A stretch of DNA of 55,000 nucleotides, from contig NW_004754926.1 of NCBI RefSeq assembly GCF_000188695.1, positions 1,061,249-1,116,248 on the forward strand, given 5' to 3'. This DNA is from Salpingoeca rosetta (taxonomy: Eukaryota; Opisthokonta; Choanoflagellata; Craspedida; Salpingoecidae). Positions within the stretch are counted from its first letter, which is position 1; the number at the start of each line of letters is the position of its first letter. Shown one piece after another: positions 1,467 to 35,186 of this stretch. Under the pieces are notes generated by a model that was not told the DNA's origin, searched no databases, and saw nothing but the letters and a program-made list of their open reading frames with translations. The translations under genes were made by a program, and so were the position numbers.

Positions 1467-4400
1467 CTGTGGTGCTTGCTGCTCGCTGCTGCCCTCGTCC
1501 TCGCTGCCTGCGCTCCAGGTGACACACCCTACTCAGCATACCTGCTTGCCTTTGATTCCTGCACGTGTGTTGGGGTGGGGGCTTCGTGCACACCTACCTT
1601 CGCGCACACGCACATCCACACACACACACACACACACACACATCCACACAAACGCACACACATACACACGCAAACACACACACAACCACACACACACACA
1701 CACATACACACACATCCACACAAACGCACACACATCCACACGCAAACACACACACAACCACACACACACACACAAACGCACACACATACACACGCAAACA
1801 CACACACATCCACACACACACACACACATCCACACACACACACACATCCACACACACACACTCTCTCTCTCTGCCTCTGTCTCATTTCCACGCACAACCT
1901 CACTCATAAACACACTCACTCTACCCTCCTGCTTCCCCTCTTCATTCTTCTTGCACGTGGTTCTGCGCGACATTCACTTGCTCGCAGCGTCACTGGCAGC
2001 AGGACCACTGGCACCATGTACTGAATGCACAGCCGTGGCTGTGTTCGACTCCGCCGGCGTTACAGGCACCGTCGAGTTCCAACCATGTTGTGGCAACAAG
2101 TTTCTCGTGGATGCGCGTCTGTCCGGCCTCCCCGCCAACGACTCGTACACTCTGATGCTCCACGCGCGCCCTGCCATTCACACGTGCGACATCATCCGCC
2201 TCGGGCTCCCGTATGGCGCTGCCCCAAACAAGCAGCAGACATCCGTCCACGACTGGATGCAGTATGAAGCAGCCTGTGCCCGTGACGAGAACCTCTGTGC
2301 GGTGGGAGACCTGACTGGCAGCGCGGGCGGCGCATTTGATGCGTCGCAGTGCACGTCCGGTTCGTGCTTCTCAACCTTGGTGGACCAGGCTGACCTGCCC
2401 CTCCAAGGACCCGCAGCCATCGTGCACCTCGCCCTAACGGTGCGCTCCACATCTCTCCAGGCAGACGGCATCACGCCCAGCACCATCGCATGCGCCCATG
2501 TGCAGGCTGTCGCCGGCCAGCCCCCAAGGCTCGCCACGCACGACGTGCTGGAGGCTCGTTTCCGCGACTCGCCGTTCATCCTCGGATACATGCGCATGTG
2601 GCAGCCATCCAACCACTCCAACCAGGCCACCGCCGTGTTTCTGGAATACAGGTACCTCAACTCGCTGCAAGGCAGAAGCGAGGGCCACTCGTTCACATCC
2701 ACGCCAACCCAACAGGCGCAGACGCCGCAAGCGAAACGACGGTTTTCGGATCATGGACAACAGCACACATCCACACAAACGCACACACATACACACGCAA
2801 ACACACACACACACATCCACACACACACTCTCTCTGCCTCTGTCTCATTTCCACGCACAACCTCACTCATAAACACACTCACTCCACCCTCCTGCTTCCC
2901 CTGTTCATTCTTCTTGCACGTGGTTCTGCGCGACATCCACTTGCTCGCAGCGTCACTGGCAGCAGGACCACCGGCACCATGCACTGAATGCACAGCCGTG
3001 GCTGTGTTCGACTCCGTCGGCGTTACAGGCACCGTCGAGTTCCAACCATGTTGTGGCAACAAGTTTCTCGTGGATGCGCGTCTGTCCGGCCTCCCCGCCA
3101 ACGACTCGTACACTCTGATGCTCCACGCGCGCCCTGCCATTCACACGTGCGACATCATCCGCCTCGGGCTCCCGTATGGCGCTGCCCCAAACAAGCAGCA
3201 GACATCCGTCCACGACTGGATGCAGTATGAAGCAGCCTGTGCCCGTGACGAGAACCTCTGTGCGGTGGGAGACCTGACTGGCAGCGCGGGCGGCGCATTT
3301 GATGCGTCGCAGTGCACGTCCGGTTCGTGCTTCTCAACCTTGGTGGACCAGGCTGACCTGCCCCTCCAAGGACCCGCAGCCATCGTGCACCTCGCCCTAA
3401 CGGTGCGCTCCACATCTCTCCAGGCAGACGGCATCACGCCCAGCACCATCGCATGCGCCCATGTGCAGGCTGTCGCCGGCCAGCCCCCAAGGCTCGCCAC
3501 GCACGACGTGCTGGAGGCTCGTTTCCGCGACTCGCCGTTCATCCTCGGATACATGCGCATGTGGCAGCCATCCAACCACTCCAACCAGGCCACCGCCGTG
3601 TTTCTGGAATACAGGTACCTCAACTCGCTGCAAGGCAGAAGCGAGGGCCACTCGTTCACCATCCACGCCAACCCAACAGGCGCAGACGCCGCAAGCGAAA
3701 CGCGCCGCTGTCGCTCTGCGGGCTCCCTCTTCGACCCTTTCAACATCATCAACACAGCAGTGTGCACGGCAGAGTCCACCACCGCGCAGTGCCCCGTCGG
3801 TGCGCTGTCTGCGCGCCACGCCCCCCTCAACATTGCCAGCAACTGGTCAAGCGTGTTTGTCGTGGACGCCGCCCTGCCGCTCACAGGCGCAGCCAGCGTG
3901 CAGCAGCGCTCTCTCGTCATCAACGAGCTCGCTGACGTTGGCCGCCTCGCATGTGCGACGCTGGTGGCGCCAGAAGTGCGCACCGTCACGGCACACTTCT
4001 ACGGCGACGTTGCTGGCTCGATCGCATTTTCCCAGGCCAGCACAGACATGCACGCCACCATCACCGTCAGCCTGCACACCGCCACCAACGACACGCATCT
4101 GTTTGTGCGCGTGCACGAGCTGCCACTGTTACAGGGCGTGAGCAGCAGCGATGAGGGCGTGTGCAACACGACGGGACGCGTGTACAACCCCGACAGCTTG
4201 CCTGCATGCACGGCTGCCACAGCCAGTGCGGACGGGTGTGCCCCTGGCGACATTGGCGGCCGGTGGGGTGTGGTGAACGTGACAGCGACAGGCACCAGCA
4301 GCAGCAGCAGCAGCAGCAATGATGGCGGAGTGCTTGTTGATGGCGGGGTGACGCTGTTTGGGCCTCGAAGCATTGCTGGGCGGTCTGTTGTGCTGAGCAG

Positions 4401-7400
4401 GGCTGACGGGCGCGTTGTTGGGTGTGGGAACATTGGGTTTAGTGGGGGTGTGAAGACGCTTGTGTCGCGGTTTGTTGGGCCGCGCGTGTTTGGGAGCGTG
4501 ACGTTTCGGCAGCTTGTTGGGCGTGCTGAGACGGAGACGAGTGTGCTTGTTGATCTTGTTGACGCTGACGGGAGTGGTGCTGGGAGCGATGCTGGGGTTG
4601 TGTGGATGATCAGCGGGGAAGCACCTGAGGACGGGGTGAACTGTGAGGGGGCGTTGAGCGGGAGCGTGTTCAACCCGTTTGGGGTTGTGTGCGATGGCAG
4701 TGGTGACTGCGGTGAGCTGTGTGGTGGAGCCGATGAGCAGGCGCAGCTTGGGTGCCGTGTTGGGGACCTGAGCAGCAAGCATGGTGCAGCTGCTGTTGGG
4801 AGACGGTACATGGTGACTGACGTGCAGCTTCCACTGTCTGGCGCCAACAGCATCGAGGACCACGTCTTGACCCTGGGCAGCTCACAGGACAGTTCACAGG
4901 ACAGCACGGGCTCGTGTGCACGTGTGATGCCATTGAGGCCATCGCTCGCATCTCCGCTGGCTACCTGCACGGCGAAATTCGCCTCTCCCAGCTGTCCCCC
5001 TTCTCCCCTGTCGTCATCCAATCCAGCGTCTCTGGCGCCGACATTGCCCAGACGCAGTACACGGTGTCAGCTTACGACCAGCAGTCACCTTACTTCCTCT
5101 CGGAACGCGCCCCTTGTGCTGTCGATGCCACGGCTCCAGTCCTCCAGGTGCGCGTGCTTCTGTACACGCTTGTATATGATTGTTTGTGCTGCTTCTTTGT
5201 GCTTCTGTGTGCTTCTGTATGCTTGTGTGCGTTGGCGGGGGAATCCTCGCCTCCTTATCACAATGCAACTGTTGGTGGTTTTCCCGCTTCTCTCTCTCAC
5301 TCACTCACACACACACACTCTCTCTCTCACTCTCTCTCACTGACACACACACACACACACTCTCTCTTTCCCCACCTCTCACGCACACACAACCACCACA
5401 CCATGGTGCACACGCTCTTGCATGCGCACGCATCCACGCAGGCGCTGCTTGATCTTGGGCCGTTTCCAGTGTCATTGTCTTCCCAGGGCGACCCCACCAT
5501 TGCGCACACAGACACGTCAGTGAATGCCACGCTGTATGGACGCACATCGCTCCTCGGTCAGGCCCTCGGGCTGGCGGCTGGTGGCCACGGCGCGTGTGGT
5601 CGCATCACATACGCCAGCAGCGACGTGATCACCGCAGCGGCGTCCTTTGCTGAAAACTCAACCGTCACAGGCATTGTGCTCTTTGAGCAGGACCCGAGCG
5701 TGCTGCAGACAACTGTGACGGTCACCCTTGCGCTTGCCAACACATCTGCACACATGCCGGTAGACACGGCGCATGTGCGACTGTATGTTGTGGAAGGCGG
5801 TGGCGACGGCAGTGGCGTTGGTGATGCGGGCGCGCTGGAGGCGTGCCGCCGCGGTGACTGGCGGCTGTTCAACCCAACAGCAGCCGAGGTTGACAGCAGC
5901 AGCTACGCCGATGACTGTCGCAGTGACGCTGCCTCATGCGCTCTCGGTCAGTTGCTGGACACTGCGGAATTACTGTCTTGTTTACTGAGATGAAAGCGGT
6001 CATTTATTGCTTCTGTGTGTGCGAGCATGTGTGCGCATGCGCGTACGTTGCGGGGATTGATCTACACAGCAAGCTCCAAGCTTCACCTACCCACCGATTT
6101 ATTGGTCCATTCAACGCACACGCGTGCATACACGCGCATATGTGTGCGTCTGCACTCACACAACGATATGCGCTCACTCATACACGCAACCACACGCACA
6201 AACACACACTATCACACGCACATACAGGAGATGTTGCGGGGCGACAAGGGTACGTGACACTGGACACAACAACGCATTCGTCTTACGTGTTCAGCGATGG
6301 AGCACTTGTGCTAAGCGACAGCGAGGGCGAGAGCACCAGCATCGTCGGCCAGCTGCTGGCGGTTGTCGCTGAGGAGGACAGCGCCTTGCTGGGCTGCGCA
6401 CCGATTGGCCAGCTTGAGGAGCGCGTTGTGTCTGCCACAGCCGGCTCCTCCACCGTCACTGTTCGCCAGTCGTCGCCGCTGCTACCCGCCACCGTCACCA
6501 CGGACTTTACACAGGCTGCCCAGACGCTGGCCCAGTTTCAGGTGTCCTCGCGCCCGCTCGACGCCCGTCTGCCAGAGGAGCAGCCGTGTGGGCCTGCGTT
6601 TGTGGGCAGCACGTTTGCCCCGTACGCACCACGCGATTGCACGGTTGTTGCTGGCCGCCCCTGCGCGCAAGATGCGTTTGCTGCCGGAGATCTCAGCGGC
6701 AAGTTTGGGTTTGTGCAGGCGTTACGTCGCGCAAGGCACACGTTTGTTGACCACACGGTCACGCTGTTTGGGCCGCGGTCCCTCGCCTATCGCACGCTTG
6801 TGCTGATGCAGCTGGGCAATCTCCCTGCGGCGTGCGCGCAGCTGCTGCCCGTGGTTCCCGTCAACGCCAGTAGCAGCAGTGGTGCGGGAACAGAGGCCGT
6901 GTTCACCACCCCCAACGCGCCGTCTACGCTGTATCGTGGCAGCGTTGGCCTGCGCGCTGCATGGACAGACGCCCTCGCCAGCGTCGCTGTGCTTTCATCG
7001 CTGACCCGGAACGATGCGCACGTGTCGGCCCTTTCAGCAGCGATTGCTGTTGGAGAGGATGTGAGCGGCGCGACGTGGTCACAGCCGCCGCTGCCGCCTG
7101 CGCACGTGTGCGAGGCCTTCGTGAGCGACGCTGCCGCTGCTTTGACGCGGCCGCCGCCGCCACCCATGTGCAGCGAGAGCACGCTGCTTGGGCAGCTGGC
7201 GTGCGTGACTGCCAGTGCCATGGCGGAGCAGAGAAGCGCGCACGCGCTTGCATCGGACGTGCCGGTGCCCGCGTTGGAAGTGTTTGTGCTGCTATCAGTC
7301 CAGGAGGGTGACATTGGCATTGGCTCGTCGTTCACGCTGGACGACGCTGACGCTTCACCGTTCCCCACACTGGGCACTGTGGTCAGCCTTGTGCCAACAG

Positions 7401-10400
7401 CCACTGTTCCCCACAGCGAGGCGGCCGGCACGGAAGCGCCGACGCTCACGGCTCTCCGCGCCATGCTGAGCGCTGATGCCCCGTCCATCGTCGACTTGTC
7501 AGCACAGCAGCTCGCTTTCTCCAATGGCGCTCGCGCGGTGGTGCTGCGTGCTGTGGCCTCGGCGCCTCGCCTTCATTACCTGCAGTTTATGCATGTGTCG
7601 TCCCTGCCGCCAGCTGCCACGACTGCAGTCGCCAACACAACAGCTATTGGTGCTGGTGCTGGTGCGTCCTACGCACTTGTGGGCGTGCTGCTGCCATTGC
7701 AGCCTGAACCGCCAGCAGGTGCTGGTCGCGCGTGTGCTGCTCTGACGGCGGTAGGTGAGCAGCAGGCGTGCAGTCTCCTCTGCAGCGGCGGCTGCACGGG
7801 ACCAGCGCCCTCGGAGTGTGTGGGTGGGTGCCGTAGCCTTGAGTTTGCCGGCCAGTGTCTGGAGACATGCGAGCAGCTCAGCAACAGCTCCTTCACCCAG
7901 GGCGCAACGTGCAAGGCGTGCCACTTTGAATGCGCAGGTGGCGGGTGCACAGGTCCCACCCCACGCGACTGCGTTGGCGGCTGCCGTCACGCGTATGATC
8001 CCGCGGCTGAGGCCTGCGTGCGCGCTTGTCCGCTCGGCACGCTCGCTGGCGATGACGGCGTGTGTGCGGAGGACACACGCACTGGTCGCGTGGCGCAGGC
8101 AGTACTTCCCAGTGACGGTGAGCAGGAGCGCGTGGTGGAGTTCTGGCAGGTGTCGGGCAGCAGCGACACGACCATCAGCCAGCGCGGCCTCGACGCGTAC
8201 GTGTCGTCGTCTGCGTATGTGTGGGAGGTCCGTGAGCTGCGCACGTCGTTGCCGGTGTTTGGCGATGACGCGTGCAGGGACGACGTCGTTGGGGGCGTGT
8301 TCAACCCTGCGCAGTCCACTCGCGACTGCACCACCGCGGATCCCTTTGGCTGCCCCGTGGGCCAGCTCAGCCGCAGACATGCCAGCATGCCGCTGCAAGG
8401 CAGCACCATCACGGACGTCGCCAGCCCCTTGTTTGGCCAAGATCTCATCTCAGGCCGCACGCTCGTCATCACCAGCGCAGACGGCACGGAGCGCCTGTGC
8501 GCCGTCATCTCGGTGCCGCTTCACCACAGCACGCATGTCGTGCGGGCCGCCTTTACGTCGCCGTTGCAAGGCAGCGTGGTGGCGCGACAGGCAGTGCGCT
8601 TTGACGGCGTGGCGGCGGAGACGCTGCTTGCCGTTGACATGCGAGTGGTTGGTGCTGCGCTGGCGGCTCGCGGCCAGGTCACGCACGACTGGGAGGTGCG
8701 GGATGGCTCTGTGTTTCCACACGAGACGCTGCAGGCGGAGTGCGCTGCAACGGGCGCTCTGTTTGATCCATTCAACCAAGGCAGCAACGCCCGCTGTGGC
8801 CCAAGCACGATCCCTTCCTCCGTTAGCGGCTACCAGCAGAACTGCCGCGTCGGCGACTTGACGAGCAAGCACGGCGCCCTCGCCCTGAGCAGCGAAGTTG
8901 CGCTTCGGTTCCAGCGCGTGGACATCCAGCTGCCGCTCCTTGATGACGGAAGCGTCCTCAACCGCACACTGACTGTGTTGGATGGGGCGACGATGGATGG
9001 CGGTGGTGGTGAAGGTGGTGATGCTGGCGGTGTGCTGGCATGCGCTGGACTGATCACAGCCGAGCCGCGCCATCTCCTCGCCAACATCACGCTTGCGAGC
9101 AGCGGGCTGCTCACGGGTGCGGTGTCGTTCTTCCAGCGCACGCCTGATGACACACCCCTCGTTCGCATCGACGTCGAGGGCCTTGGCGGCGCCTTCGCTG
9201 ACTTTGGCGTGGTGGACGCTCCCCCTGCCGTTGCGTGTGCCCAGCACGGCGCGCCTGCGTGGTTCAGCCCGTTCACCTCCACCCACGACCCATCGCCCGT
9301 GGGCCTCCTGTCTGCCAAGGTTGGCTCGTTCGCTGGCGTGTTTGTCGGTGTGAGCGGCGCCGTGCTGCCAGACGCGGAACTGCCGCTCTCTGGCCCGCAC
9401 AGCATCGCTGGCCGAACACTCGTCGTGACAAACGCGACAACGGGCGCGGCAGCCGTGTGCGCGCGCATTGTGGACACTGAGTGGCGCAGGCGCGCCGTCG
9501 CCGATGTGCGTGGGAGCGTCGAGGGCAAGGTTGTGTTTGAGCAGCAGCACGACGTGTCGCAGGAGACGATGATCACGGTTTCGCTCGCTGCGAGTGCACA
9601 GGCGCCAGCGGGCCCCTTTGTGTGGCAGCTGCAGAGCGATGCGTACAACTGCACCGTGGGCACTCCCCTCAACTCGTACAACGTGTGTGTGGCTGAGAGC
9701 TGCGATTACGAGGCGCAGTGCGGGCTAGCCGCGCAGCAGCGCGGGTGCACTGTTGGTGATTTGACAAGCAAGCATGGTGTGCTTTCTGTTTCGCCAGCGG
9801 GCGTGTCTGGCGTGTTTTCCGACCTTCTCCTGCCTGTCAGCGAGGATGTGTCTGGGAGCGTGCTTGTTGTGTACACGGAGGACACGAGCGAAGTGGTTGG
9901 CTGTGGGAGTGTTCGTGTCGTGCAAGCTCCAGCAGACCGCACGACCACGACCACCACAACCACAACCACGACTACCACAACCACCACGACTACCACCACA
10001 ACCACGACTACCACCACGACTACCACCACAGCCTCGACGACCCAAGCCCGACCAACCACCACGACTGCCACACAGCGTATGTGTTGCCACCACCGCCTCT
10101 GTGTTGTTTGCACATAATGGTTACGTGCTGCATCATTTCTCGCTGGCAGCCTGCGTATGTTGTCTTACCTGCGAACTCGTTGCATTTTCAGCTCATGCAC
10201 GGTTGCAAACGCACATTCGCAAACTCACAAACGACACCCTGCACACACACTACACACACACAATGCACGCACATCGCCCACACATGGATTTGCACACACA
10301 TACACGCACACTCCACGCACGCACACTCCACACAAACACACACACACACTCCACACACCCCATACACACATACACACTCCACACACGCACACTCCACACA

Positions 10401-12319
10401 AACACACACACACTCCACACTCCACACACGCACACTCCACACAAACACACACACACTCCACACTCCACACTCCACACTCCACACTCCACACAAATACACA
10501 CACACACTCCACACTCCCCGCAGGTGTGACACGATATGCGCTGCTAGAGCTTGTTGGGCTTGGCTCCGTCACTAACAGCATGGTGGATACGCTTGCAAAC
10601 ACATTGCATGGCGAGATTGCATCAGCGTGCGCGTGCAGCGTGCAGGTGACGATTGTGGATATCATCAACACACGCGACAGCAGCAGCAGCAGCGGCAGCG
10701 GCAACCGTCGTCGTCGTGCCACAACGTCAATTCAGGTGTTGTATTCAGCGAGCAGTAGTGTTGTGTCTGGTGCGCTGCTGGCGGGCGCCATGGATGCTGC
10801 CGTGTCATCTGGTGGTGTGCTGACACGGCTACGCACAAGCAGCGGTGGTGGTACGTTTGCCGACGTGAGCGGCGTGTTTCAAGGGGATGTTTCTGCCACG
10901 GAGGCTGCGGCGCGGTCATCGGAGACGGGTGCTGACAGCGGCGCGAGCTCGGGTGGCGGATCTGGCAGTGTTCCCATCCCCATCATTGCTGGCGCTGCCG
11001 GCGGGTTTGTTGTGCTGTGTGCGCTGATCGCGTGCGTGGTTGTTCGGGGCCGCCGCCGCCGTCATCGTGGCGATGCGCTTCGCGACATCAAGTCGTGGAG
11101 CAGCGGTGGGCGGCACGGCACGGCGACCAGCACGGCGTCGGCGGCAACAACAGTGGGACACGGGGCGAGACCGTCACACTCGTCCTCCATTTACCTGCTG
11201 GGCAGCCAGAGCACCGACGCGCCGTCGCCACCCATGCGCGGCCGCACATACACCAACGGCGGCACAAGCAAGCTGCCGTGTCCAGACACCACGGACAGCG
11301 AAGGGTATGCCATCCCCTCTGTCATCTTTAGTCAGGGGCACAAGGCCGGCACGTCCGGCGAGGAAGGCGGGCTGGGGCTGGCAGACAACAACGCGGCCGA
11401 GCCTGCGACGGCATACATCAAGGCCATGCCACTCAAGCCGCTTCGGGGCGATGGCAGCGCTGGCGGCGTGGTGGACAAGAATGCGACATCGGCGTCGGCG
11501 TCACTGCCAGGCGGGGATGCGCGTCGCTCCATGCTGCTGCCACGCCCCAGCAGCTGCGTGGTTGCGCGTGCCCTGCACGACTATGATTCGGCCGAGGACA
11601 CGGTTCTTGCCCTCAAGGCCGGCGACATGGTGGAGGTGACGGAGAAGGCGGACAATGGGTGGTGGTGCGGGAAGATTGGTGCGCGCTCCGGCTGGTTCCC
11701 ATCGTCGTTTGTGCAGGTGGAGACGGTGGAGGAGACGGTGGTGGATGATCTGCCATCGCGCCTGCCCTCCGTTGTAGAGCGTGCAGAGCTTGAATCTGGC
11801 GACCGCACTGCCGGTCGTGACAGCAGCGGCGGCGGCAGCAGCAGCAGCAGCAGGGACAACAAGCGCACATCTCTTCTCCCTCCTCCTCCCCCGCGGCTCG
11901 CTGCAGCAACGGTAGCAGCTGGGGCGTCGAAGGCAGGTGAGGAGGAAAAGGCAACGAAAGACGGGCGCAAGCGGCCAACACCACCACAGCGCAATTCGTC
12001 CACAGCTGCCAGCCTGAACACGAGCAATACAGCACCACCTGCAACCTCAACAGCCGCGCGGGCACAAGGGCTGATGGGCGCCTTGAACAAACAGCTGGCA
12101 GCTCAGCTGGGGCAGCAGCAACAGCAACAACAGCAACGGCAAACGCGCGCTAAGCCTGTCAAGCCTGAAAGGAAGCAAAGCAAGTCTTCACCATCGTCAT
12201 CATCGCAGCCAGTCAGTGCCCCGACCAACACGACACAACAAGCATCCACACCAGCGGAGTCTGCTGTCGACAAGACTCGCGACAACAACAGCAGCAATAA
12301 CAGCACCAGCCATACCACC

Positions 12320-12392
<73 letters not shown>

Positions 12393-15124
12393 CAGCGAGC
12401 AGAGCGGAGAAGCCCTCGGGCCAGGAAGGGGCCAGCGAAACCACCACGACCGCCGCCGCCGCCGCAGCAGCAGCAGCAGTCACCGTGATGGTTGCGCAGT
12501 ATGCTTATGACCCTTCAGAAGGGGACGGATTGAAGCTGACATCTGGAGCAGAGGTGGAAGTGTCCCTTGTGCGTGATGATGGCTGGGCGTACGGCAGCTG
12601 CGAGGGCGCCGTGGGCTGGTTCCCTGCATCATATGTTGTGCCCAAGGACAGCGAACAAAATGCAGGTGGGCCCGGAAACCAGGGCAAGGGTACGCGGGCA
12701 AGCGACCTGTACGACAACGTGGGGGACGATGAGGAACTTGAGGACATGTATGAGCAGCTGTATGCGTTCCCGGTTGAGGCGGAGCCTGCTCCTTCTGGGC
12801 CGGATGCGTGCTACACTGCATTGTATGCGTACAGGCCAGTTGGGGAGGCGGATCTGGAGCTGCATGAGGACGACGTGTTGACGGTCATCGACAAGACAGG
12901 GGACTGGTGGCTGGGCAGGATTGGGGTGCGTGAGGGCTGGTTCCCGGGGACATATGTGAAACACACGCCTGAAAAGTACCGTCAACTCGCTGCGCAATCT
13001 GTCTTGCCGCCCCCGCCGTTGCCGCCTCCGAATCGCGGGAAGCAGCAGCAGCAGCAGCACAAGGAGGAAGGTGTACAGGGCGCGGGTCGTGCTAGCACGG
13101 AGGCAGCACCTGCAGCAGCAGCGGTGGCGAAGGACACGCCCTCCACCGCGCAGTTCCCAGCCTCTTCAGCACCGGCACCACCGCCAGCGCCGCCACCACC
13201 AGGGGCACCTTCGTCAGGAGCAGCGACCTCAACCGCCGTGTCAAAGAGCGTGAAGATGAAGGCAAAGCCACCACCTCCAAACAAGAGCAAGGCCAAGCAG
13301 CAACAGCAACAGCAACAGCAACAAGGAGGTACGCAATCGCCCGCCACCAACCCAATGGCCATACAGAGTGAGCTGGCGGCTGCTCTTGGGAAGCGGGGTG
13401 GTGCTGCCAATGAGTCCAACGGGGAGACTCACGACAGCAGCAGCAGCGGCAGCAGTAGCAAGGCTGGGAAACCGCTGCCAGCTGCGCTCCGCACTGCGCC
13501 ATCAGAGCCCAGTGGCAAGGGGGCACGTCGACTGCCGCCCCCCACGTCTGCGCCGCCGTCGCGCAAGCCACCGCCTCCAGTTGGGCAGGGCCGCAGCAGC
13601 AGCGGCGGGAAGCGCCAACAGCAACGGGGTGTGTCACGCCGTTCCCATGTGCGCAACCTGCGTCCACAGAGAGCCGTGCCTGCACCACCACCGCCGCCAC
13701 CAACCGCCGCACCTGCACAAGCGCCAAAGGCGGCGCCCACTGCAGCAAGTATGAAAAAGAAGCCGCCGCCGCCACAAGCGAGAGGAGCGGGGAAGCAGGA
13801 GGAGCAGCAAGATGCAGCGAAGATGCAGCTTGCCCCGCTGCCTGCAGCGCCTGCAGCGCCTGCAGCACAAAGTCCACATCAGCAGCCGTCAACGGGGGCA
13901 AAGACAGCACAGCAGCAGCAGCTCCGGGAACTGGCGCAGGTGGCAGCACAGCGGCATCCATCCTCCAGTGACGTGACTGCCAACAACAAAGCAACTGCTT
14001 TGACGTCTTCGTCGGCTGCTGCATTTTCTTCTTCGTCAACACAGGCGGCGTCGGTTGTCGTGCACGCGAAACCGCGTCCTCCACCGCCATCCAAGCAGGC
14101 GCCAACACGAAGCAGCGAAGCGCCTGCACCTGCTGCACGCGCTGCACCTGAACCAACCAAGCCTGCGTTGGCAGGCAGCGCGGTGAAGAAGGACGGCGCA
14201 CGTGTGAGCACCGCAGCAGCGGTGACGACTGCAAAGACGGATGGTGCGGATAACTCAGGTGCCGGGCGGCCGAAACCGCCACCGCCGAAGAAGCCAGGTC
14301 AACTTGCCGGCCACAAGGTCGCGCCCGCCGCCACCAAACCAGCACCTGCAGCCAGGGAGGGCGGCGTTGGTGGTGGTGATGGTACGAATGGCTATGGCAA
14401 CAATGGCAACAATTTGGTAAAGGAGCTGGGGAAATCCCTCAAGCAGCAAGCACCCGCGACATCAGGGGCAGCAGCTCCCCATGCTGACAAGGGCGCGAAG
14501 CACAAGCTGCCACCACCGCGAGCGACAGCAGCCGTCACGCAGGCGCCGCCGTCGAGTGCGCTGCCGCCCCCACGTCAAGCGCGCCCAGCCAAACAGCAGC
14601 AGCAACAGTCAGCACAGCCTGTACAGTCTGTACCGCCAGCTCAGCAGCAACAGCCACAGCGTGAGCAGCAGCCAGCGCAACGACCACAGCGCAAGCCGAG
14701 TGTGAGACCCACAACCAGGCCGGTAGGGAGCCCTGGGGTGAAGAAGCCCGCAACAGCGCCTGCGTCGGGCGCATCAACAGCGGCACCACGTGCAAGCGTG
14801 AAAGCGACACCAGCGCGTACAGCGCCTGCCCTGACCAAACCACAGGCGGCAGTGTCACCGTCAGCACCAGCTAAGCCGCGCGCCCCTGCACGGGCATCAA
14901 CAGCACGCAAGCCACCCGCTCACGCTTTGAGCCGAGACGGCGGAGACACCAAGACGAGCAGTTCCCGCACACCACCCGCACCCTCGTCGTCAACGCCGGC
15001 ATCAGCAGCATCTGCAACGACAACGGCAGCAACGTCAGGACCATCGCGGCCCTCGGCACCATCTGTGCGCAAGTCGGCACCAACAGCGACGCCACCCGCC
15101 TCCCGCAAGCACCCGAACCACCAC

Positions 15125-15176
<52 letters not shown>

Positions 15177-15379
15177 CACAGCGACGACCAGCACCGCGGG
15201 CGACTCGTGTGCCTGCGAGCTCGAGTTCTTCTTCGTCGTCGCCTTCGACTGCGGGGCCTTCACGCCCAGCTGCACGCGCAAGCACGCGCACAGGTGGCGC
15301 TTCGCAGGGTGCGCCGAGCCGACCACCAGCACGCCCATCTGCTGGGCCGCGCGCACGAACCAGCAACCAGGCCTCGTCA

Positions 15380-15410
<31 letters not shown>

Positions 15411-15667
15411 CTGTGGCGGCTGCACGGAAGCGTACAAACCCGGGCGAAGCGAGCACGGCGAAGAAAAACAAGGGGGGTGGCGACGGAGGTGGATCGAGCG
15501 TGTGCAAGGCGATTGTGACGTATGTGGCACGAACGGCGGAGGAGCTGTCGTTTGAGGAAGGCGAGGTGATTGTTCAGCTTTCACCCGCCGTGAATGGGAT
15601 CTGCAAAGGCATGAAACAGGATGGCACAGTCGGCACCTATCGTGCTGCTCACGTCGATTCCTTCTAA
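1467..15667 (+). CDS. Giant single-pass receptor-like protein: SOD-like repeats, furin-like Cys-rich block, TM, four SH3 domains
   Basis: Coding blocks are ?-1518, 1988-5147, 5442-5946, 6228-10076 and 10524-15667 (TAA). Phases agree at all four junctions. Exon 1 encodes a signal peptide core (LWCLLLAAALVLAACAP). Then come about a dozen repeats of roughly 150 residues with Cu/Zn superoxide dismutase landmarks: C.SAGSLFDPF, C.VGDLSSKHG, LPLSGPHSIAGRTLVV and a closing RLAC/GCG. A furin-like Cys-rich block interrupts the array, and a Thr-rich stalk and a transmembrane helix follow it. The cytoplasmic side has three typical SH3 domains, a long Pro/Ala/Gln-rich tail and a terminal atypical SH3. The likely role is a surface receptor or adhesion protein that recruits Pro-rich partners; this is inferred from architecture only. 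Oddities: no ATG is found (1467 is a CTG in the right frame), the first repeat is duplicated, and one base seems missing near 4926. The exon linking the two duplicate copies is unresolved. Confidence 0.75.
1519..1987 (+). repeat. Intron 1 of the receptor gene, a CA-based minisatellite
   Basis: Almost the whole intron is imperfect CA repeat with recurring ACATCCACACAAACGCACAC-type units at about 1609-1865, then a CT-rich stretch and the acceptor TTGCTCGCAG. Donor and acceptor are in phase 1, giving the join Ala-Pro|Ala-Ser. The repeat also reads open as His-Thr peptides, so a gene finder could wrongly include it as coding. Confidence 0.7.
1871..3703 (+). repeat. 963-bp direct tandem duplication
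   Basis: The block from about 1871 to 2740 recurs at about 2834-3703 at a constant offset of 963 bp (321 codons). It covers the tail of intron 1 and the first SOD-like domain plus the start of the next. I see about six substitutions, all in the first 190 bp. About 640 bp then show no visible difference before a one-base gap (TTCACATCC at 2694 against TTCACCATCC at 3657). The first copy ends abruptly at about 2740 in unrelated sequence and CA repeat. This is either a very recent duplication or two haplotypes assembled in series. Confidence 0.85.
1988..9940 (+). other. Array of catalytically dead Cu/Zn-SOD-like ectodomains
   Basis: Each repeat keeps the SOD fold landmarks and the disulfide cysteines: the Cys before the FNP-like turn and the Cys in the terminal RLACGVIG-like strand. 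The metal ligands are mostly gone. The HVHE position reads RVHE, WEVRE, WMIS or VWQLQ. GPHFNP becomes GSLFDP or GSVFNP. RHVGDL becomes RCRVGDL. The ligand His after GRTLVV is Thr or Ser. Good examples lie at about 3700-3960, 4450-4930, 8220-8520, 8520-9060 and 9480-9940. Substitution of the ligands rules out normal dismutase chemistry in these repeats, so a structural or binding role is likely. Confidence 0.7.
7750..8070 (+). other. Furin-like / growth-factor-receptor-type Cys-rich block
   Basis: About 105 residues contain two copies of C..GGCTGP.P..CVGGCR followed by further regular cysteines, ending near CPLGTLAGDDGVC. The spacing matches the furin-like repeats of growth factor receptors. 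It sits between SOD-like repeats rather than at an end of the ectodomain. Confidence 0.75.
9940..10076 (+). other. Poly-Thr mucin-like stalk
   Basis: Roughly thirty consecutive Thr codons, nearly all ACC, ACA or ACG mixtures, are followed by Thr/Ala/Pro-rich sequence up to the GTATGT donor at 10077. Such a stretch is expected to be heavily O-glycosylated and extended, holding the repeat array away from the membrane. Confidence 0.7.
10077..10523 (+). repeat. Intron with CACTCCACAC minisatellite
   Basis: The last intron of the receptor gene contains many near-identical units of ACTCCACACAAACACACACA or ACTCCACACACGCAC between about 10305 and 10510, ending at the acceptor CCCCGCAG. The join is phase 1 and gives Gln-Arg-Val-Thr. 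Confidence 0.7.
10970..11044 (+). other. Single transmembrane helix of the receptor
   Basis: The hydrophobic segment PIPIIAGAAGGFVVLCALIA and the next four residues are followed directly by the basic stop-transfer run RGRRRRHR. Combined with the signal peptide this predicts a type I orientation with the SH3 domains in the cytoplasm. Confidence 0.85.
11557..12966 (+). other. Three SH3 domains in tandem
   Basis: SH3-1 (about 11557-11721) has ALHDYDS, NGWWCGKI and GWFPSSFV. SH3-2 (about 12484-12642) has AQYAYDP, DGWAYGS and GWFPASYV. SH3-3 (about 12809-12963) has ALYAYRP, GDWWLGRI and GWFPGTYV. All keep the ALYDY, Trp and FP..YV ligand-binding signature, with SH3-2 having WA in place of WW. A poly-Asn run (about 12331-12390) and a poly-Ala run lie between SH3-1 and SH3-2. 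Confidence 0.9.
12967..15496 (+). other. Pro/Ala/Gln-rich cytoplasmic tail with SH3-ligand-like motifs
   Basis: About 840 residues are dominated by Pro, Ala, Ser, Lys and Gln. Repeated KPPPP, RPPPPSK and KPPPPK-type segments near 13265, 13560, 13755, 14075 and 14270 fit class I or II SH3 ligand motifs. Poly-Gln runs occur at about 13297-13326, 15127-15176 and 15382-15410. The tail could bind the protein's own SH3 domains or those of other receptors. Confidence 0.75.
15497..15664 (+). other. C-terminal degenerate SH3
   Basis: The last 56 residues follow the SH3 pattern (AIVTYVA, EELSFEEGEVI) but the Trp-Trp position reads Ile-Cys and the GLFP..YV end reads GTYRAAHV. The hydrophobic ligand groove is therefore altered. 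Confidence 0.65.
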
Positions 15668-17153
15668 TGTGCTACGTGTGTATTGTTATTGTTATTGTGG
15701 TTGTGTGTGTGTGTCGTGGGTTTGTGTGTATTGTGGCTGTGTGTGTGTGTGTGTGGAGGTGTGCGCCCTGCATTGCAGCACCCTTGCACTGCAACGCCCT
15801 GCATTGCAACGCCCTGCATCTCTGTTGGCGCTCCTTTACGTGTGCATTTCTTTTTCAGGTGTTTTGTCATTTTGGTGTTCTTGATCTTGTTTTTGTGAGT
15901 GGAGTCGAGTTTCCTTCGCTGCCACTCTTGTGCAGGCACAAGATGTGCTGTTTGTTGTGTTTATGGATTGACGATGACTGTAGTGCAAGCGAGAAGCGAG
16001 CGAGAGTGTTTAGTCAGCGACCCTGTTTGACGGCAACGTCACCCGAGTCAAAAACTACCATACATACATACATCCATCCATGGACTCGTTGCGAGCTCCA
16101 ATGTTGCAGAGCTCCAAACCAGGGTGATGAGGCAACGTCACACAACAACACCACACCAACAAACACGCCAACAAAACACAACAACGTGCAAAACTCGTTT
16201 GCGTGCCACCTGGCTGGTTGGCATAGGCATGCTAGGCATGGCATGTTGCTGGGGCCGTGGTTGTTGCGTGGGTGCGTGCCCTCGTTTGCGTCAACCGCCA
16301 GCACCCTCCAAGCAAGCAAGCAAGCCCAGCAAGCAAGTAAGCGTGTCGTTTCCGGACAAGCAGAACAAACGCCCAAACCGCACAACGCCACGTCATGGTA
16401 TTGTGCGGAATATTGACTGAAATCTTGTACAATTTATCGTCAACCGGGAGTCCTACCCCGGGTTTTTTTTGCGCCGGTGTGCTCATGCTTGGCTCGTCAG
16501 CACTTGTTCTGAAAGCAGCAAGGCAACCCAACGGCCAGCGTGGAAACGCAGAAGCCGCCAGCAGGGACACCGCAAGTGCGCATGCGCAAGCGAAAAGCAC
16601 TCCGAAGCCGCGCAGCAGCGCAGTTCCCGCAGCCCATCAGCACTCGCCCGCGCACGCTCTCGTCGTTGCTCTTGTGCGTCGTGCCGTGTGTCGTGCCTTG
16701 TTTGGAGTGCTGTGCGCGTGTGCGTGTGCGTGTGCGCTTGTGCGTGCTTCCTGGGCTGTGCTCACATTTTTCTCACCACCACCAAACCTCGGCAGCTTCG
16801 TCTCTTTTGCGAAGCGCACGGGGTTCCGGAGGGCTCCGAGACACGAAACCACCACCACCACACCCAATAGACTAGCTGCTGCCACAAAACATCACCGAGT
16901 TCCCATATTCCCCCTTCTGTCGTTCTCTCCCTCTCCTCCTCCTCCTCGTCCTTCCCTTCTTCTTCCATTCTTTCTGCCATTCTTTCCCTTCCTCCACCTC
17001 GACTCGTCTGCTACGACTGTTCGATCCCTGAACCAGCTCCCCCTATTCCACCCCCCCCCTTCCAACCTTTCTCTGTGTTTTGGCTTGAACCATCTATCTC
17101 CCTGGGTTGTTCTTGTTTGTCTTCTCCCTTGAGCAACGGCATTTTTTCCTGTG
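15668..17153. other. 1.5-kb intergenic region
   Basis: It holds the 3' UTR of the receptor gene and the promoter and 5' UTR of the bZIP gene. A (TG)n stretch lies at about 15690-15755. A short direct repeat (GCAACGCCCTGCATT, about 15770-15825) follows. AAGC tetranucleotide repeats occur near 16310-16345, and a pyrimidine-rich leader spans 16905-17050. Open frames here lack conserved content. I see no gene. Confidence 0.5.
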
Positions 17154-19220
17154 ATGCACAGAGTTTGCTTTGCGGGCCACTCCTCGACCCATGCATCTCC
17201 TTTCTGCTCCGTCGCTGGTGAGGAAGACGACGACGACGACGACGACAATCGGCGCTCACCGCTCAACCTCTTTGACGAAACACTTCACACTGCTTCAAGC
17301 GCAGGCAGCAGCAACAGTCTTCACTCTACTGACGCTGAAGCCTTCGTGAGCTTCCCGGACAGCACCAGCGCCGCCCTTTACTCAACCACCAAGCTTCCTC
17401 CGCCGCTCCCGCTTCCCTTGCCTCAGCAGCAGGAACAAGAAGAGCACGAAGATCTTGAGGACGACGAAGGCCTTGTCCTTAACCTCTCCCCTTTGTCCAA
17501 CTGCCCCGCCGAGTGCGACGCCACCTCTCTGCCTTTCCCCGACTTTGGGAACCCCTTCAAGACGGCAAGCCAACAAGAAGCACGCTCATCCTCCGACGCT
17601 GCCGCGCCAACCACCAATGTTGCGACGGCGCCAACGGTCGAGTTTTTCGACCTCCTAGCGCAGGATCAGCCTTCGCCAGGCTTCTTCCCCTTGCCGCCAG
17701 GCACCCCGCCTCCGGCCTCGTCCTCCGCCGCGGCCCAGACGACTGGCGCTACCGCCAGATCAGCCGTCACGACCAACGGCAACGGCAACGTCACGCCAGC
17801 CTCAGCTGCTGGCACGACCATGACTGATGCCGTGATGGTGGGCGGTTTGCAGGCGTCGGCCCAGGTGACGCAGATGTCTGTGAGCAGGGCGCAGGGCATG
17901 CCCCCAGGTGTGCCCGCCACGGCAACGCTGGACCTGTGGAACGTGGACTTTCTCAACGAGGCAGCGTGCTCGTCGTCGCCGACCCCGCCCGCCATGCTGA
18001 GCGCTCTGGCGCCCTACATGCCGCAGGACGCCATGGTGAACGGCGCTGCCGGCAATCAGGGTGTTGCGCAGGCATCGGCTCGCCGCTCGTGCCTAGCACC
18101 GCGCCGCTCTGGGCAGCACAGCATGCCGCCAGCCCTTTCGCTGGCCGCCAGCAACTACAACAACTACGCCAGTTACAGCACCTTCACGGCCAACGCCAAC
18201 CCCGGCAATAACAACACCAACAGCAGCAGCAGCGCAAATCCAGCGGTTTCGTACGCGTACTCGCCCAGCGGCGTGCCCGCCGTGCTGGTGCCGATGATGG
18301 CGCCACAGCACTCGGCAGCGGCCCTCACCCACGCTGGCAACATGGTGGAAGGCCGTGTCGCGAGCACCGGCACGGGCACCATCACGGGGAACAGCAGCAC
18401 GTACAGCGGGAGCGACCTCAAGACGGAGGAGCAGCTCTCCCCCTCGCCTGTCGCCAACATGCTCTCCGAGGACGATGAACAGGCGCTCGACTTTGCCATG
18501 TGCGGCGACCCCATGTTGATGGACACGCGCACGACAACGCCGCCGCCGCCAGCGAACCGGCTGCGCGCACCGATGACCCGCGGTCGCAGGCGCAGGCGCA
18601 GCAAGCGGCAGCAAGCAGCTGTCTCGCAGGCATCGCAGCCGCACGTGATGACCATGATGCCTGCAAGCATCAGCGCCATGGCGAGCAGCAGCATGTCCTC
18701 AGCGGGCTCTGCACCGCGGAGAAGCCTGCGCCAGAAGCAACAGGGCCAAGTGCACAAGCAGCGCAGCAAGCAGTCCAAGCGCCACCAGCAGCAGCAGGAG
18801 GAGGAGGAGGAGGAGGAGCAAGAGACCTCGCCTCCATCGTCCAACTCGAGTGATCACGGGCACAGCAGCGCCCATCACCCGCACAAGCGCGGCGTGAAGC
18901 TCGAGTCCAAGTACCAGTGGGACGAGCACCTCCTCACCATGCCACGTGCTGAATTTGTGCACTTTACGCGCACCAACAAGCACCTGACTGCGGATCAGCT
19001 GCAAGACCTGCGACAGACGCGCCGCCGCATGAAGAACAGGCTGTACCAGAAGGATGCCCGGGACAGGCGGTTCATCAGGGTTGCGCGGGAGCGGGAGTTG
19101 ACCCGCCACCAGCTGCAGGCGTCTGTGCGCCGTCTCTCTGCACGCTGCCTTCGTCTTGAGGCCATCATCCGCGCCCACTGCCCAGAACAGCTCACCACCC
19201 TCACCGAAGAGCAGCTGTGA
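17154..19220 (+). CDS. bZIP transcription factor, Maf/CNC-like
   Basis: One uninterrupted frame of 688 residues runs from the ATG at 17154 to TGA. The first ~580 residues are low-complexity (Ser, Ala, Pro, Asn), with an acidic run near residue 25 and acidic clusters that could serve as activation segments. A basic, Gln-rich linker precedes the conserved end. From about residue 586, DEHLLTMPRAEFVHFTR, then LTADQLQDLRQTRRRMKNR, resembles the extended homology region that precedes the basic region in Maf and CNC factors. The bZIP signature N-x7-R (NRLYQKDAR) follows, then a short leucine-heptad segment. The protein should bind DNA as a dimer in the nucleus. The weak, short zipper suggests heterodimerisation, which is an inference. 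A short N-terminal intron (GTGAGG at about 17218) cannot be excluded. Confidence 0.75.
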   Translation: MHRVCFAGHSSTHASPFCSVAGEEDDDDDDDNRRSPLNLFDETLHTASSAGSSNSLHSTDAEAFVSFPDSTSAALYSTTKLPPPLPLPLPQQQEQEEHEDLEDDEGLVLNLSPLSNCPAECDATSLPFPDFGNPFKTASQQEARSSSDAAAPTTNVATAPTVEFFDLLAQDQPSPGFFPLPPGTPPPASSSAAAQTTGATARSAVTTNGNGNVTPASAAGTTMTDAVMVGGLQASAQVTQMSVSRAQGMPPGVPATATLDLWNVDFLNEAACSSSPTPPAMLSALAPYMPQDAMVNGAAGNQGVAQASARRSCLAPRRSGQHSMPPALSLAASNYNNYASYSTFTANANPGNNNTNSSSSANPAVSYAYSPSGVPAVLVPMMAPQHSAAALTHAGNMVEGRVASTGTGTITGNSSTYSGSDLKTEEQLSPSPVANMLSEDDEQALDFAMCGDPMLMDTRTTTPPPPANRLRAPMTRGRRRRRSKRQQAAVSQASQPHVMTMMPASISAMASSSMSSAGSAPRRSLRQKQQGQVHKQRSKQSKRHQQQQEEEEEEEQETSPPSSNSSDHGHSSAHHPHKRGVKLESKYQWDEHLLTMPRAEFVHFTRTNKHLTADQLQDLRQTRRRMKNRLYQKDARDRRFIRVARERELTRHQLQASVRRLSARCLRLEAIIRAHCPEQLTTLTEEQL

Positions 19221-20659: not shown

Positions 20660-21007
20660 CGCGTCTGTTGACTGCGTCGTTGGCTGCTGGCCGAGTGGTC
20701 GTCAGGGCGAACAGGTTAGCGACATCAAAAAATGCAGTGTGGTCTGCTTGTTTGGTTGTCGCTGCTGCTGTGTCGCTGCTGTTGTGCTTTGTTTGCGACT
20801 ACCTGCTGCCTGCGTGTCTCACAACATCACAACACCACATCATTGTCCGTCCATATCCTTGTCACACTGTCACCATCAGTCTGCCTGTCCGTGCCAGTGT
20901 GACGTGACCACTGCACACCTGCGCGAGCCAGAGTGTTGTTCTCCCCCTACCCCGTTGTTGCGATCAAAAAAGTTGTTGTGTGGTTTACTTACTTACACGC
21001 GCCCTTG
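20660..21007. other. Gap between two minus-strand genes
   Basis: A 348-bp stretch containing the promoter of the CXorf65-like gene and the 3' end of EXO70. I see no conserved motif or coding sequence. Confidence 0.5.
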
Positions 21008-22790
21008 CTACGCCATGTCATCCCCGCCCAGGAGGGCCTTGAGCATGCGCTCCACATCATCTGGTGAGAACCGCAGATACTTGTGCGGGTTCTTCTGCGA
21101 GAAGCCCGATGTGCTGTATGCGTTGTTGAACGCCACAAAGCGCGGCAGCACCGTGTCAAGGTTCGTCTGCGTGAGCTCTTCCCGCAACGCCTGCGTATGC
21201 GTGCGTGTGTGTGCATGTGTGTGAATGTGCATGTGTGTGTGTGTGTTAAAGCAAGGCAGGAAGGGGCTGTTGTGTGCAGCAGGGCACGTGCTGCCAGTGA
21301 CACGGAGACCACAGCTACGGCAGCTCCATAACCACACACCTGGCTTGGAATGGCAAACTCCTGCTGTAGGGCCTGAATCCGTTCCAGCTCCGTGTTGAAC
21401 GTGGTGTAGCGCTCCTTGATCATATCCCTTTCCCGCTTCGACAGCGGTGTTGACACCGCCTCAACCTTCAACGCGCCCTGTAACCATGACGGTGACGATG
21501 GTGTTTGAGGGAGTGAGTGAGTGAGCGAGTGAGTGAATGCACGAATGGTGTGTGCAGTGATGCCAGTCAATGCGTCGAGTGGCACAACAGCAGATACACA
21601 CGTGCACGTACACGTACACGCACACACACACACGCGCACGTACACGTACACACACACGTACACGTACACAAACACAAACACACACGCACGCACTCGACGC
21701 CAATGAAAGCGGTAAAAGCAGTGTGCTTGAAAGCGCCACCACTGTTCGTTGTCAGCTGACGCTGCCAGGCGTACCAGAAGCGTTTCCCATGTCGTCTTGA
21801 GGTAAAGGTCCTTTGCCGTCTCCACAAGCTCCTCAAAGTGCACAACAAGCTGCAGAATGCACACACACACATACACACACAGGCAATCGTCAAATCTTGG
21901 CTGGTGTCACGTGTCGCAACGTGGCAGATGCCATACAAACAGCAGAGGCTGAACACACACACACACACGCACATACACAAGCAAACACACACGCGCGCGC
22001 GTACACACGCACACACCTCACGCAGTGTTTCCTCCGTCACATGGGTTTCAAATACGTTCCCCTTGAGTGCACTGCAACCATGGAGATAAAGAGCAAGCTG
22101 AGCATACGCACAACACAGCTTGCTTCGGCTTCCAACCACAACAGCCATGTAATCGCATCCACAAAACAAGTGGCGCGAACAAACATTGCGCAAACATTGC
22201 GCACAACAAACACAGCACCGTGCAACCGGCACACGCCCACCTGACAATGTACGCGTAGTTGTTCATGAGAAAGACGTTGAGGATGGTCGGGTCCTCGTAC
22301 GTCCGCGCCTTCAGCTCAAGATTGTCCTTCAAAGCCGTCAACACTTGAACGGCAAACATGCAGCAGCGGGAGCAGCGAGAGGATGTGTGCGTGTGTGTAA
22401 ATGTGTGTGTGTGTAAAAGTGTATGTGTGTGTGTGTGTAAATGTGTGTGTGTGTGAGTGTGTGTGTGTGTGTGTGAGTGGGTGTGTTGTGTGTTTGTGGA
22501 TGAGGGTCGTGAATGAGCAGAAAATGTTGATGTGAGCAGGAAAGCAGCAGGAGAAACATACACACGTACACCTACACCCACGCACACACCTGAGGAAAGC
22601 CAGTTTGTGAGGGTGACTTTGGCCTCTGTGCCCGCGATCCAGTGCATGCCGCGATCGGCGTTTGCGCTCTGCTTGTGGGCGAGCACAGACGCGGCTGCCT
22701 CATGATACTCCATGACACTCACAACAAACTTGATGGAGCGGCTTGTCAGCTCGTGCACTGTCCCGTCCTCAGGCAGCTTCTGCAGTGACG

Positions 22791-32900: not shown

Positions 32901-33349
32901 CACGCAGCGCAGGTCGCGCACGAGCAGCGGGAGATCAAGCCGCCGCACCATCTTCACCAGCTCCGTAAACGCATCGGAGGCAAGCCGCGATGCTACCATG
33001 CCGTTGTCGTCACGGGGCTTTGGCGCTTCGTCCGTTGTCGGTGCCGATGACGCTGCCGCGAGTGCGCCGGGAGCGGGTACGCCCGCGCCCGCAAGGACGG
33101 GCTCAAAGAAGAACGGCTGCATGGCAACGTGCGCAGCGTCAAGCTTGGCGTGGCGAGCAAGCACGTGCAGGGCAATCCACTTGACGAGCAGGTGGCGCTG
33201 GTGGGGCGCGCAGTCCCACACGACACCGTGGCGAAGGGAGCCATCGGCCAGAGCCCGCAGCGTGGCCTTGTCACCCCAGAAGTTGACAAACGCCTCCACG
33301 TCGCTCTCGTCCGTGGACGGCAGAATGTCGGCGGTGCGGTAGCACGTCT

Positions 33350-33410
<61 letters not shown>

Positions 33411-35186
33411 TGCGTGTTGATAGGAGAGCGCGTGAGCATGCATTCGGTTCATGTCACCACAGCGAGGACGGCAAAGTACACACAAAAAGTGTGTGCACGT
33501 GTTTCGACGTGCAAATGTGAACAACAAGCACTTCATCAAGCGTGGGTGTCAGCCCTGCAAGCACGGTGCATTGGTTGCGGACCAGGTTGAGGAGAACGCC
33601 GATGCTGATGACATGCTCCTGTGCGGCGAAGATGGACGACGGCGGAGCGCCTGTGATCTTCCACGGCTGCTGCGGCGTGGGCAGCGCTACAACAACGGGT
33701 GCGCGGTCGCCGAGCCCGCGGCGAAGCAGGACGGGGAGGAGGCGGCTGGCAAGGTCAATCCAGTTGCCGGCACGGTCAAGCAGCTGCGCAGGGTACTTGC
33801 TGACAACCTCAGGCGAGAGGCGCGCGTGGATCATCGTGTCAAACTTGTAGTGCGGGTCAACGGGCGACAGGAACAGCGACGAAAACGCTGTGCGTTGTGT
33901 GTGTGTGTGTGTGTATGTGTGTGTGTGTGAGTGTGTGTGAGTGTGAGTGTGTGTGTGTGTGTTTGGGTGTGTGTGTATGTGTATATGTGAGCGTGAGTGT
34001 GGAGTAGGATGAGGGAGAGATAACAGTCTGAGCAAGATTCAAGCGGAGCAAGACCAGGGTTCAAGTTCAAGCGTGAGATGCATGTTTCAAATGGAGACCG
34101 ACACGCGGCAAAACCCGGAGCAAGAGACAGCAGGAATATGGGCTTGCACGTGTGACAACAAAGTGGCAAAGGAATGACGGCATGCGAAGACAAACCGTTT
34201 GTTTCGTCACTGTCGAGTAGTTTGATGGCGCGCGCTGCTTCAAACCGCAGCTCATCGTACTGGCCGCTGAACACATGCAAGCACATGAAACCAAACACAC
34301 GCACACATACACGCGAATGTACGAGTAGGGGGAGAGGTGCATGTGTTAACCAATGAGCTGGGCAACACTGGAGTGTAAGATGTTCAAAGGCATCCACAAA
34401 GCGCGTACGTTCACAAACACGCGCCACGACCATCAACAGCACCACGAACGCCGACACAAGTACAACCAATACAGCCACCATCAACGACATGCAAAGCGCG
34501 TACATGGTCATGTGGCCGAGGAGATTACAGAAGCCAGACGGGTCAACAAAGGTGACGAGGAAGGCCTGCTGGATGTCCTCAATTGGGGGCGGAACAGCGC
34601 CAACGTCAATGTAGTGCTTCATGGCGAGCGGCTCTTCGTTCCACTTGCTTGATGCAATCACTGCCATTGTCTTCCGCACCATCTGGTACGCGCTCGCCTC
34701 GCGAGGAACCTGAGGAGTGGGCGGCGGGGCGGGAGGTGCGGTGTGAGGGGAGGCGGGATGTAACATGCAAGATGGATCAAATGTTGGGGGTAATTGACGT
34801 CTCTCGCGCAAATTTCCACCGCACACACACATGCACACATACATTCACACATACATTCACACTGACAAGTACAGACAACCATACACGTAACGCACACACA
34901 AGCACACGCACACACCTGTCGCTGCTGGATGAGGTGGATGAGGAGCATGGTGGCGGTGAAACCGTTCATGACGCCAAATGTGCGCGAGTTCATGCCGCGC
35001 TGGCGCAACCACGTCTGCAGCACAACGAGCAGGCATTGGGTGACGGGTGGTGTGAGGTAGTGCAGCATCGGTATGGGGAGGTGCCGAATGACACGCACAC
35101 ACATGATTGTGCATGTTGTCATGAACATGAATGAACACACACATGCACACACACAGAGCAGCAGGAGGTGGCCAGACCACAATGCA

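Follow-up and report, generated by a model that had tools for sequence, protein, structure and literature searches.

A predicted choanoflagellate membrane protein with copper-less superoxide dismutase-like repeats and a cytoplasmic SH3 tail

We analysed a window of 55,000 nucleotides from the choanoflagellate Salpingoeca rosetta (contig NW_004754926.1, positions 1,061,249 to 1,116,248); all positions below are those of this window. Positions 1467 to 15667 of its forward strand most likely belong to one gene, whose product would be a type I membrane protein with roughly 3,900 residues: a cleavable, non-enzymatic receptor that carries an array of superoxide dismutase (SOD)-like repeats outside the cell and SH3 domains inside. 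To this explanation as a whole (a one-gene SOD-array receptor, its cleavage and a tail that passes from closed to open) we give a probability of about one half. An initial annotation of the same DNA had listed a signal peptide, about 12 SOD-like repeats, a furin-like Cys-rich insert, a poly-Thr stalk, a transmembrane segment, three SH3 domains, a long Pro-rich tail and one more SH3 domain. Every one of these elements is present and in that order, position 15667 ends a stop codon, and Sod_Cu, Furin-like and SH3 all score above their Pfam cutoffs. Two things had been overlooked in this inventory: the loss of the copper site, and a cleavable-looking domain next to the membrane.

The five-exon gene model was assembled manually, with the DNA of the gene's 5' two thirds and of its end, the splice sites, their phase and the likeness of one repeat to another as guides. 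Its protein has 3915 amino acids counted from position 1467, and it is free of stops until the terminal stop codon ending at 15667. All four junctions are GT-AG and the frame is kept throughout. A phase-1 donor, CCAG|GTGACA, leads from exon 1 in frame into exon 2, and the phase of the exon 5 acceptor, CCCCGCAG at 10523, fits the exon 4 donor. The open frames of exons 4 and 5 run to 3.8 kb and 5.1 kb, respectively. Thirteen SOD-like segments (R01 to R13) were cut by hand. The features referred to below are these:

1467..1518, forward strand: part of exon 1, a signal-peptide-like hydrophobic stretch (hydropathy 2.32; no ATG)
1988..2738, forward strand: additional copy of the 5' part of exon 2, from a tandem duplication, omitted from the model
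2951..5147, forward strand: exon 2, with R01 to R04 and the first part of R05; frame shifted by one base near 4924
5442..5946, forward strand: exon 3, with the remainder of R05 and the start of R06
6228..10076, forward strand: exon 4, with the remainder of R06, R07, an unsupported stretch, the Cys module, R10 to R13 and the Thr stalk; Sod_Cu match, mostly covered by two relatives
6854..7723, forward strand: stretch cut as R08 and R09, unsupported as SOD repeats (1.2 and -0.9 bits)
7724..8074, forward strand: Cys module of the EGFR-domain-IV or furin-like kind (Pfam above cutoffs; EGFR match)
8075..8521, forward strand: repeat R10, with a SOD-fold model (AlphaFold pLDDT 90.2, pTM 0.86)
9941..10072, forward strand: Thr-rich stalk
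10524..15667, forward strand: exon 5, with the juxtamembrane domain, transmembrane segment, SH3 tail and stop codon
10526..10879, forward strand: juxtamembrane domain, predicted ferredoxin-like and possibly SEA-type
10706..10717, forward strand: RRRR furin-type motif, in the predicted beta2-beta3 loop
10970..11044, forward strand: transmembrane segment
11546..11725, forward strand: SH3-a (Pfam; SH3 domains in the PDB)
12470..12649, forward strand: SH3-b
12800..12976, forward strand: SH3-c
12977..15490, forward strand: Pro-rich tail
15491..15664, forward strand: SH3-d, the fourth SH3 stretch by Pfam, its ligand groove degenerate by eye

Sod_Cu reaches 47 bits on exon 4 against a Pfam cutoff of 28.9. 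Each hand-cut segment was scored with hidden Markov models (HMMs) of the other repeats and compared with 200 shuffles, and 11 of the 13 exceeded the best of these. R08 and R09 fell under the shuffles and were rejected as SOD repeats. The annotated count of about 12 thus stands for 11 repeats and fails for these two segments. When repeats were scanned one by one with Pfam, five of eight had no match at E 10 and the remaining three stayed under the cutoff, which means that most of them are recognisable only through their siblings; the exon 2 frame gave no Pfam family at E 1. The barrel was modelled for R10 alone, and the best structural match of that model is Candida SOD5. The repeat profile aligns with SOD5 up to position 157, and with the listed Cu/Zn SODs only up to positions 143-148.

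For the copper ligands, the repeats were aligned to one SOD chain, with the customary SOD numbering of His and Cys residues. H46 is found in 0 of 11 repeats, H48 in three (R01-R03), H63 in none (R01 has a gap) and H120 in none (R05 has a gap), so that no repeat holds more than one of the four ligands. The C57 column holds a Cys in 10/11 repeats, R06 being shifted, and another Cys lies near the repeat end in 11/11; since the reference stretch stops before C146, the equivalence of this second Cys is a matter of pattern. Two Cys are invariant across 14/14 sequences. Beyond the H120 column the aligned repeats are shorter than SOD1, meaning that there is no extended loop VII (the electrostatic loop). 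As the fold is retained and the copper site is gone, enzymatic SOD activity of the array is, judging by its residues, very unlikely.

Part of this ectodomain is, by alignment, conserved. With exon-4 residues 500-1240 as the query, 7993 proteins were scored and two of them matched, P0001 (E 3.0e-159) and P0002 (E 1.6e-141), which are identical to exon 4 in 47% of 1096 columns and 39% of 1018 columns, respectively, with the Cys module included. Both alignments open with residue 1 of the exon-4 query; by eye, the residues preceding it in the two relatives are unlike exon 3. Both also diverge at about one point inside exon 4, at 9270-9300. This suggests an intron shared at the start of exon 4 and an extra one in P0001 and P0002 near 9270-9300, which the gene in the window would lack. 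Neither relative has the SH3 part.

The Cys module, annotated as a furin-like insert, deserves that name: it scores 43.8 bits with GF_recep_IV (cutoff 29.5) and 38.1 bits with Furin-like (cutoff 26.8), and it matches EGFR domain IV at E 1.8e-6. Further on, hydropathy is highest, at 2.59, over model residues 2355-2373, the transmembrane segment. Besides it, 1.6 is exceeded by the signal-like exon and, weakly, by two peaks (1.72 and 1.67) in the unsupported R08/R09 stretch. One strong peak besides the signal-like exon agrees with the single-pass surface protein that had been proposed. The juxtamembrane domain is modelled as a ferredoxin-like beta-alpha-beta-beta-alpha-beta fold, and RRRR|A, at residues 61-64 of this domain, would lie between predicted strands 39-49 and 66-75. 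The motif is a candidate cleavage site. Along the 2350 residues of the ectodomain it is the sole RX[KR]R, where composition predicts 0.3.

Inside the cell, the annotated arrangement of three SH3 domains, a Pro-rich tail and another SH3 domain is reproduced by Pfam, which finds four SH3 stretches in exon 5 (SH3_1, E 3.6e-34, 116.6 bits for the protein against a cutoff of 22.9). By eye, the ligand-binding residues are mostly retained in SH3-a, SH3-b and SH3-c, and lost in SH3-d. The tail was also said to contain its own Pro-rich ligands, and candidates are there in excess. Counted over all of the tail that lies outside SH3 domains and compared with 500 shuffles, class I SH3-ligand motifs number 9 (shuffle mean 3.3; 1/500 shuffles reach 9) and class II motifs 10 (mean 3.2; 3/500 reach 10). 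PPPP occurs 12 times against a mean of 0.5 (0/500), a contrast that is flattered by plain shuffles disrupting Pro runs. There are nine Tyr outside the SH3 domains, including those in YAIP, YDNV, YEQL and YAFP, motifs of a type that presumably suits SH2 domains. Pfam detects no kinase in the model. The top PDB match is p47phox for SH3-a and SH3-b and intersectin 2 for SH3-c. A link with p47phox and NADPH oxidase was considered and rejected: the p47phox score adds two SH3 domains, and per domain it reaches at most 47.2 bits, where a Rho-GEF chain has 47.7.

Two side observations concern the tail. It contains pure CAA (20 units, 12334-12392) and CAG (16 units, 15128-15175) runs, which read as poly-Asn and poly-Gln. 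At 15400-15490, directly before SH3-d, RKR and KKNK clusters lie about ten residues apart, resembling a bipartite nuclear signal.

How might such a protein work? The copper-less SOD array would be a surface for binding or adhesion and not an enzyme. On the way to the cell surface a furin-type protease may cut the SEA-like domain, with both pieces remaining joined. A ligand that clusters the receptor or pulls on it (prey bacteria, matrix or a neighbouring cell could be considered) would then open or shed the ectodomain. The tail, kept closed until then by contacts between its own SH3 domains and PxxP motifs, would open and recruit partners, for example actin regulators and tyrosine kinases.

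Whether the ectodomain and the TM-SH3 exon belong to one gene is the first point to be weighed. If there were two adjacent genes, a secreted SOD-repeat protein would end in exon 4 and a separate transmembrane SH3 protein would be encoded by exon 5. An in-frame stop 39 bases past the exon-4 donor would allow this, and so would the two relatives, both of which hold only part of exon 4. To examine the intervening DNA, codon log-odds were trained on R10-R12 and on SH3-a to SH3-c. The frame of exon 5 scores as coding as soon as the acceptor is passed (0.27 in the first window, 10520-10698, then 0.23 to 0.56 in windows to 11418), while windows within the intron separating exon 4 from exon 5 have negative scores in each of the three frames. 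The first in-frame ATG past the acceptor, at 10580, falls within helix 1 of the juxtamembrane model. Coding sequence up to the acceptor with no start codon there implies that exon 5 begins in mid-protein and requires an upstream exon. The nearest one in phase is exon 4, an agreement with a chance of 1 in 3. The coding signal, the phase and the lack of a start codon in this place therefore speak for the receptor-like single gene of the initial annotation; we favour one gene on these good though indirect grounds, and consider two genes quite improbable.

Several results weigh against the single cleavable receptor. All splice joins, that between exons 4 and 5 included, are predicted from DNA, which leaves room for two genes. 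The Thr stalk scores as non-coding, meaning that the codon test misses odd coding sequence. Exons 4 and 5 joined as a query (residues 1-1030 scored) found no relative of 1730-5504 amino acids at E 0.001 among 7988 proteins scored, and residues 1-480 of exon 5 gave four matches among 7985, all of them animal SH3-containing proteins. The juxtamembrane model is a single-sequence one of middling confidence (41.6-63.3 over five models); Pfam gives no SEA match for the domain, and no SEA entry was recognised among the matches listed in a fold search with the model, a result nevertheless compatible with SEA. Ligand, cleavage and partners are all inferred.

The remaining difficulties on this side lie in the 5' part of the gene. 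There is no ATG on the forward strand between 921 and 2016, so the signal-like exon lacks an ordinary start codon. It may begin in an exon further upstream or at a non-AUG codon, or the sequence may be in error. Near 4924, inside a SOD repeat, the reading frame of exon 2 is offset by one base, and an X was entered in the model at this point. Replacing the frameshift by an intron was rejected by eye, as it would remove the first strands of a repeat. Finally, 1800-2738 and 2760-3702 form a tandem duplication of about 940 bases with 98% identity, comprising the end of an intron and the start of exon 2, so that a reader following the DNA counts that stretch twice. In the aligned coding parts of the two copies 4/708 positions differ; two of the differences change residues and the last is a 1-bp deletion in copy 1. 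Including the extra copy in the model was rejected by eye, because a donor-like site at 2652 would join copy 2 out of frame. CA repeats surround the missing start, the frameshift and the duplication, which makes misassembly the easiest cause; a decaying locus may be another. With three defects inside the first 5 kb, the 5' part could be damaged or misassembled to the point that the real N-terminal part is unlike our model. We think this rather unlikely, given the long open frames of exons 4 and 5 and the conservation of exon 4, and it would be compatible with a single cleavable receptor. As a separate observation, many CA and TG dinucleotide runs of at least 12 bases occur throughout the window on both strands, and CA runs sit in the introns of the gene.

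Two other readings accept the gene and differ about its function. The protein could be a membrane-tethered extracellular SOD with an antioxidant role. The SOD fold is present, and some members of the CSRP family, according to a review (PMC13017621), are active SODs. An intact copper site, however, is seen in 0/11 repeats, and we find this reading hardly credible. The initial annotation supposed that the receptors cluster through SH3-PxxP contacts between tails. Four SH3 domains and ligand motifs at about three times the shuffle mean would suit such contacts, but closure within one tail or outside partners would fit the same motifs equally well, and SH3-d has by eye lost its groove. Clustering through the tails would be one way for the last step to work, and we rate it as unlikely.

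The nearest known family, judged by its description, is CSRP. According to the same review, CSRPs have 4-12 SOD repeats, occur in animals and in Capsaspora and are secreted or glycosylphosphatidylinositol (GPI)-anchored (PMC13017621). The Capsaspora protein has 12 repeats, nine of them with copper, some CSRPs are copper-less, and the function of the family is termed largely enigmatic; oyster dominin, which is SOD-like and copper-less, acts in recognition of bacteria (PMC13017621). CSRP repeats are further marked by an intramolecular disulfide and by the lack of both an extended loop VII and a zinc site. We compared repeat number, disulfide, loop VII, the copper site and anchoring. The protein in the window has 11 tandem SOD-like repeats by HMM, with the barrel modelled for R10, Cys positions that by themselves suit one intramolecular disulfide per repeat, and no extended loop VII. 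The copper site, intact in many repeats and species of CSRP, is missing here, as in the copper-less CSRPs. Instead of being secreted or GPI-anchored, the predicted one-gene product has a transmembrane segment and an SH3 tail, and unlike in CSRPs the array is interrupted or followed by a Cys module, a Thr stalk, a SEA-like domain, the membrane segment and the tail. Because of this anchoring, and because common descent with CSRP repeats is only putative, we do not class the protein as a CSRP. The main text of the review contains no occurrence of "choanoflagellate", "transmembrane" or "SH3" (PMC13017621).

Other parts resemble other systems. Fungal Cu-only SOD5, the nearest solved fold to R10, is a single active enzyme, whereas here we see dead repeats in an array. 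The cut in Notch-2 and the mapped site in GPR126 lie in the SEA beta2-beta3 loop, and Mucin-1 is likewise cut there (PMC6954182). Our model shares with these receptors a membrane-proximal domain of predicted ferredoxin-like fold and a furin motif at that loop; the SEA type is only putative in our model, and their ectodomains and tails are unlike those here. EGFR/ErbB domain IV shares the Cys module, but no kinase accompanies it in our protein. Yeast Sho1 and Fus1 are membrane proteins with one cytoplasmic SH3 domain and no SOD repeats; Sho1 has four transmembrane segments, against one here.

The combination of a SOD array with SH3 domains was absent from the proteins and the literature searched, and so were, in the literature, a choanoflagellate with a Cu-only SOD repeat and one with a cytoplasmic SH3 receptor, most subscription papers being outside the scope. 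By the openings of their abstracts, the choanoflagellate papers that did turn up concern Mint PDZ domains, FGFR docking proteins, Src and MAGUKs. The annotated claim of a new receptor architecture thus stands for the combination and is weakened for the parts, the ectodomain being of the CSRP kind and SH3 membrane proteins being known from yeast. New here is probably a CSRP-like ectodomain on an SH3-bearing receptor that is probably cleavable. A bolder proposal, which we make tentatively and at less than even odds, is that a metal-stripped SOD fold has become the ligand-binding array of a Notch- or mucin-style cleavable receptor with built-in SH3 signalling, a class undescribed in the sources searched. 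A CSRP-like protein joined to an SH3 tail would point to a receptor role for such arrays, and this would explain the loss of copper with the fold retained. The cleavable-looking juxtamembrane module makes activation by force or ligand testable in a protist, and the tail could connect a receptor that itself has no kinase domain with the networks of actin and of tyrosine kinases.

Exon 4, exon 5 and an upstream open reading frame (ORF) were compared with NCBIfam, and none of them matched a family. There were no relatives of exon 4 in IMG/VR and GTDB contigs or of the stretch SH3-a to SH3-c in IMG/VR, collections that are viral and prokaryotic, so these misses say little. Around the gene, a spliced-looking frame with hydrophobic stretches at 351-921 on the forward strand, with a stop near 921, resembles by eye a small membrane protein. 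A weak Exo70_C match of 20.8 bits, under the cutoff of 24.1, lies at 20992-21906 on the reverse strand, and two ORFs at 32292-34844, also on the reverse strand, have the Nrap domains D2, D3 and D4. The next ORF downstream of the gene, at 17133-19217, matches bZIP_Maf with 77.9 bits against a cutoff of 22.

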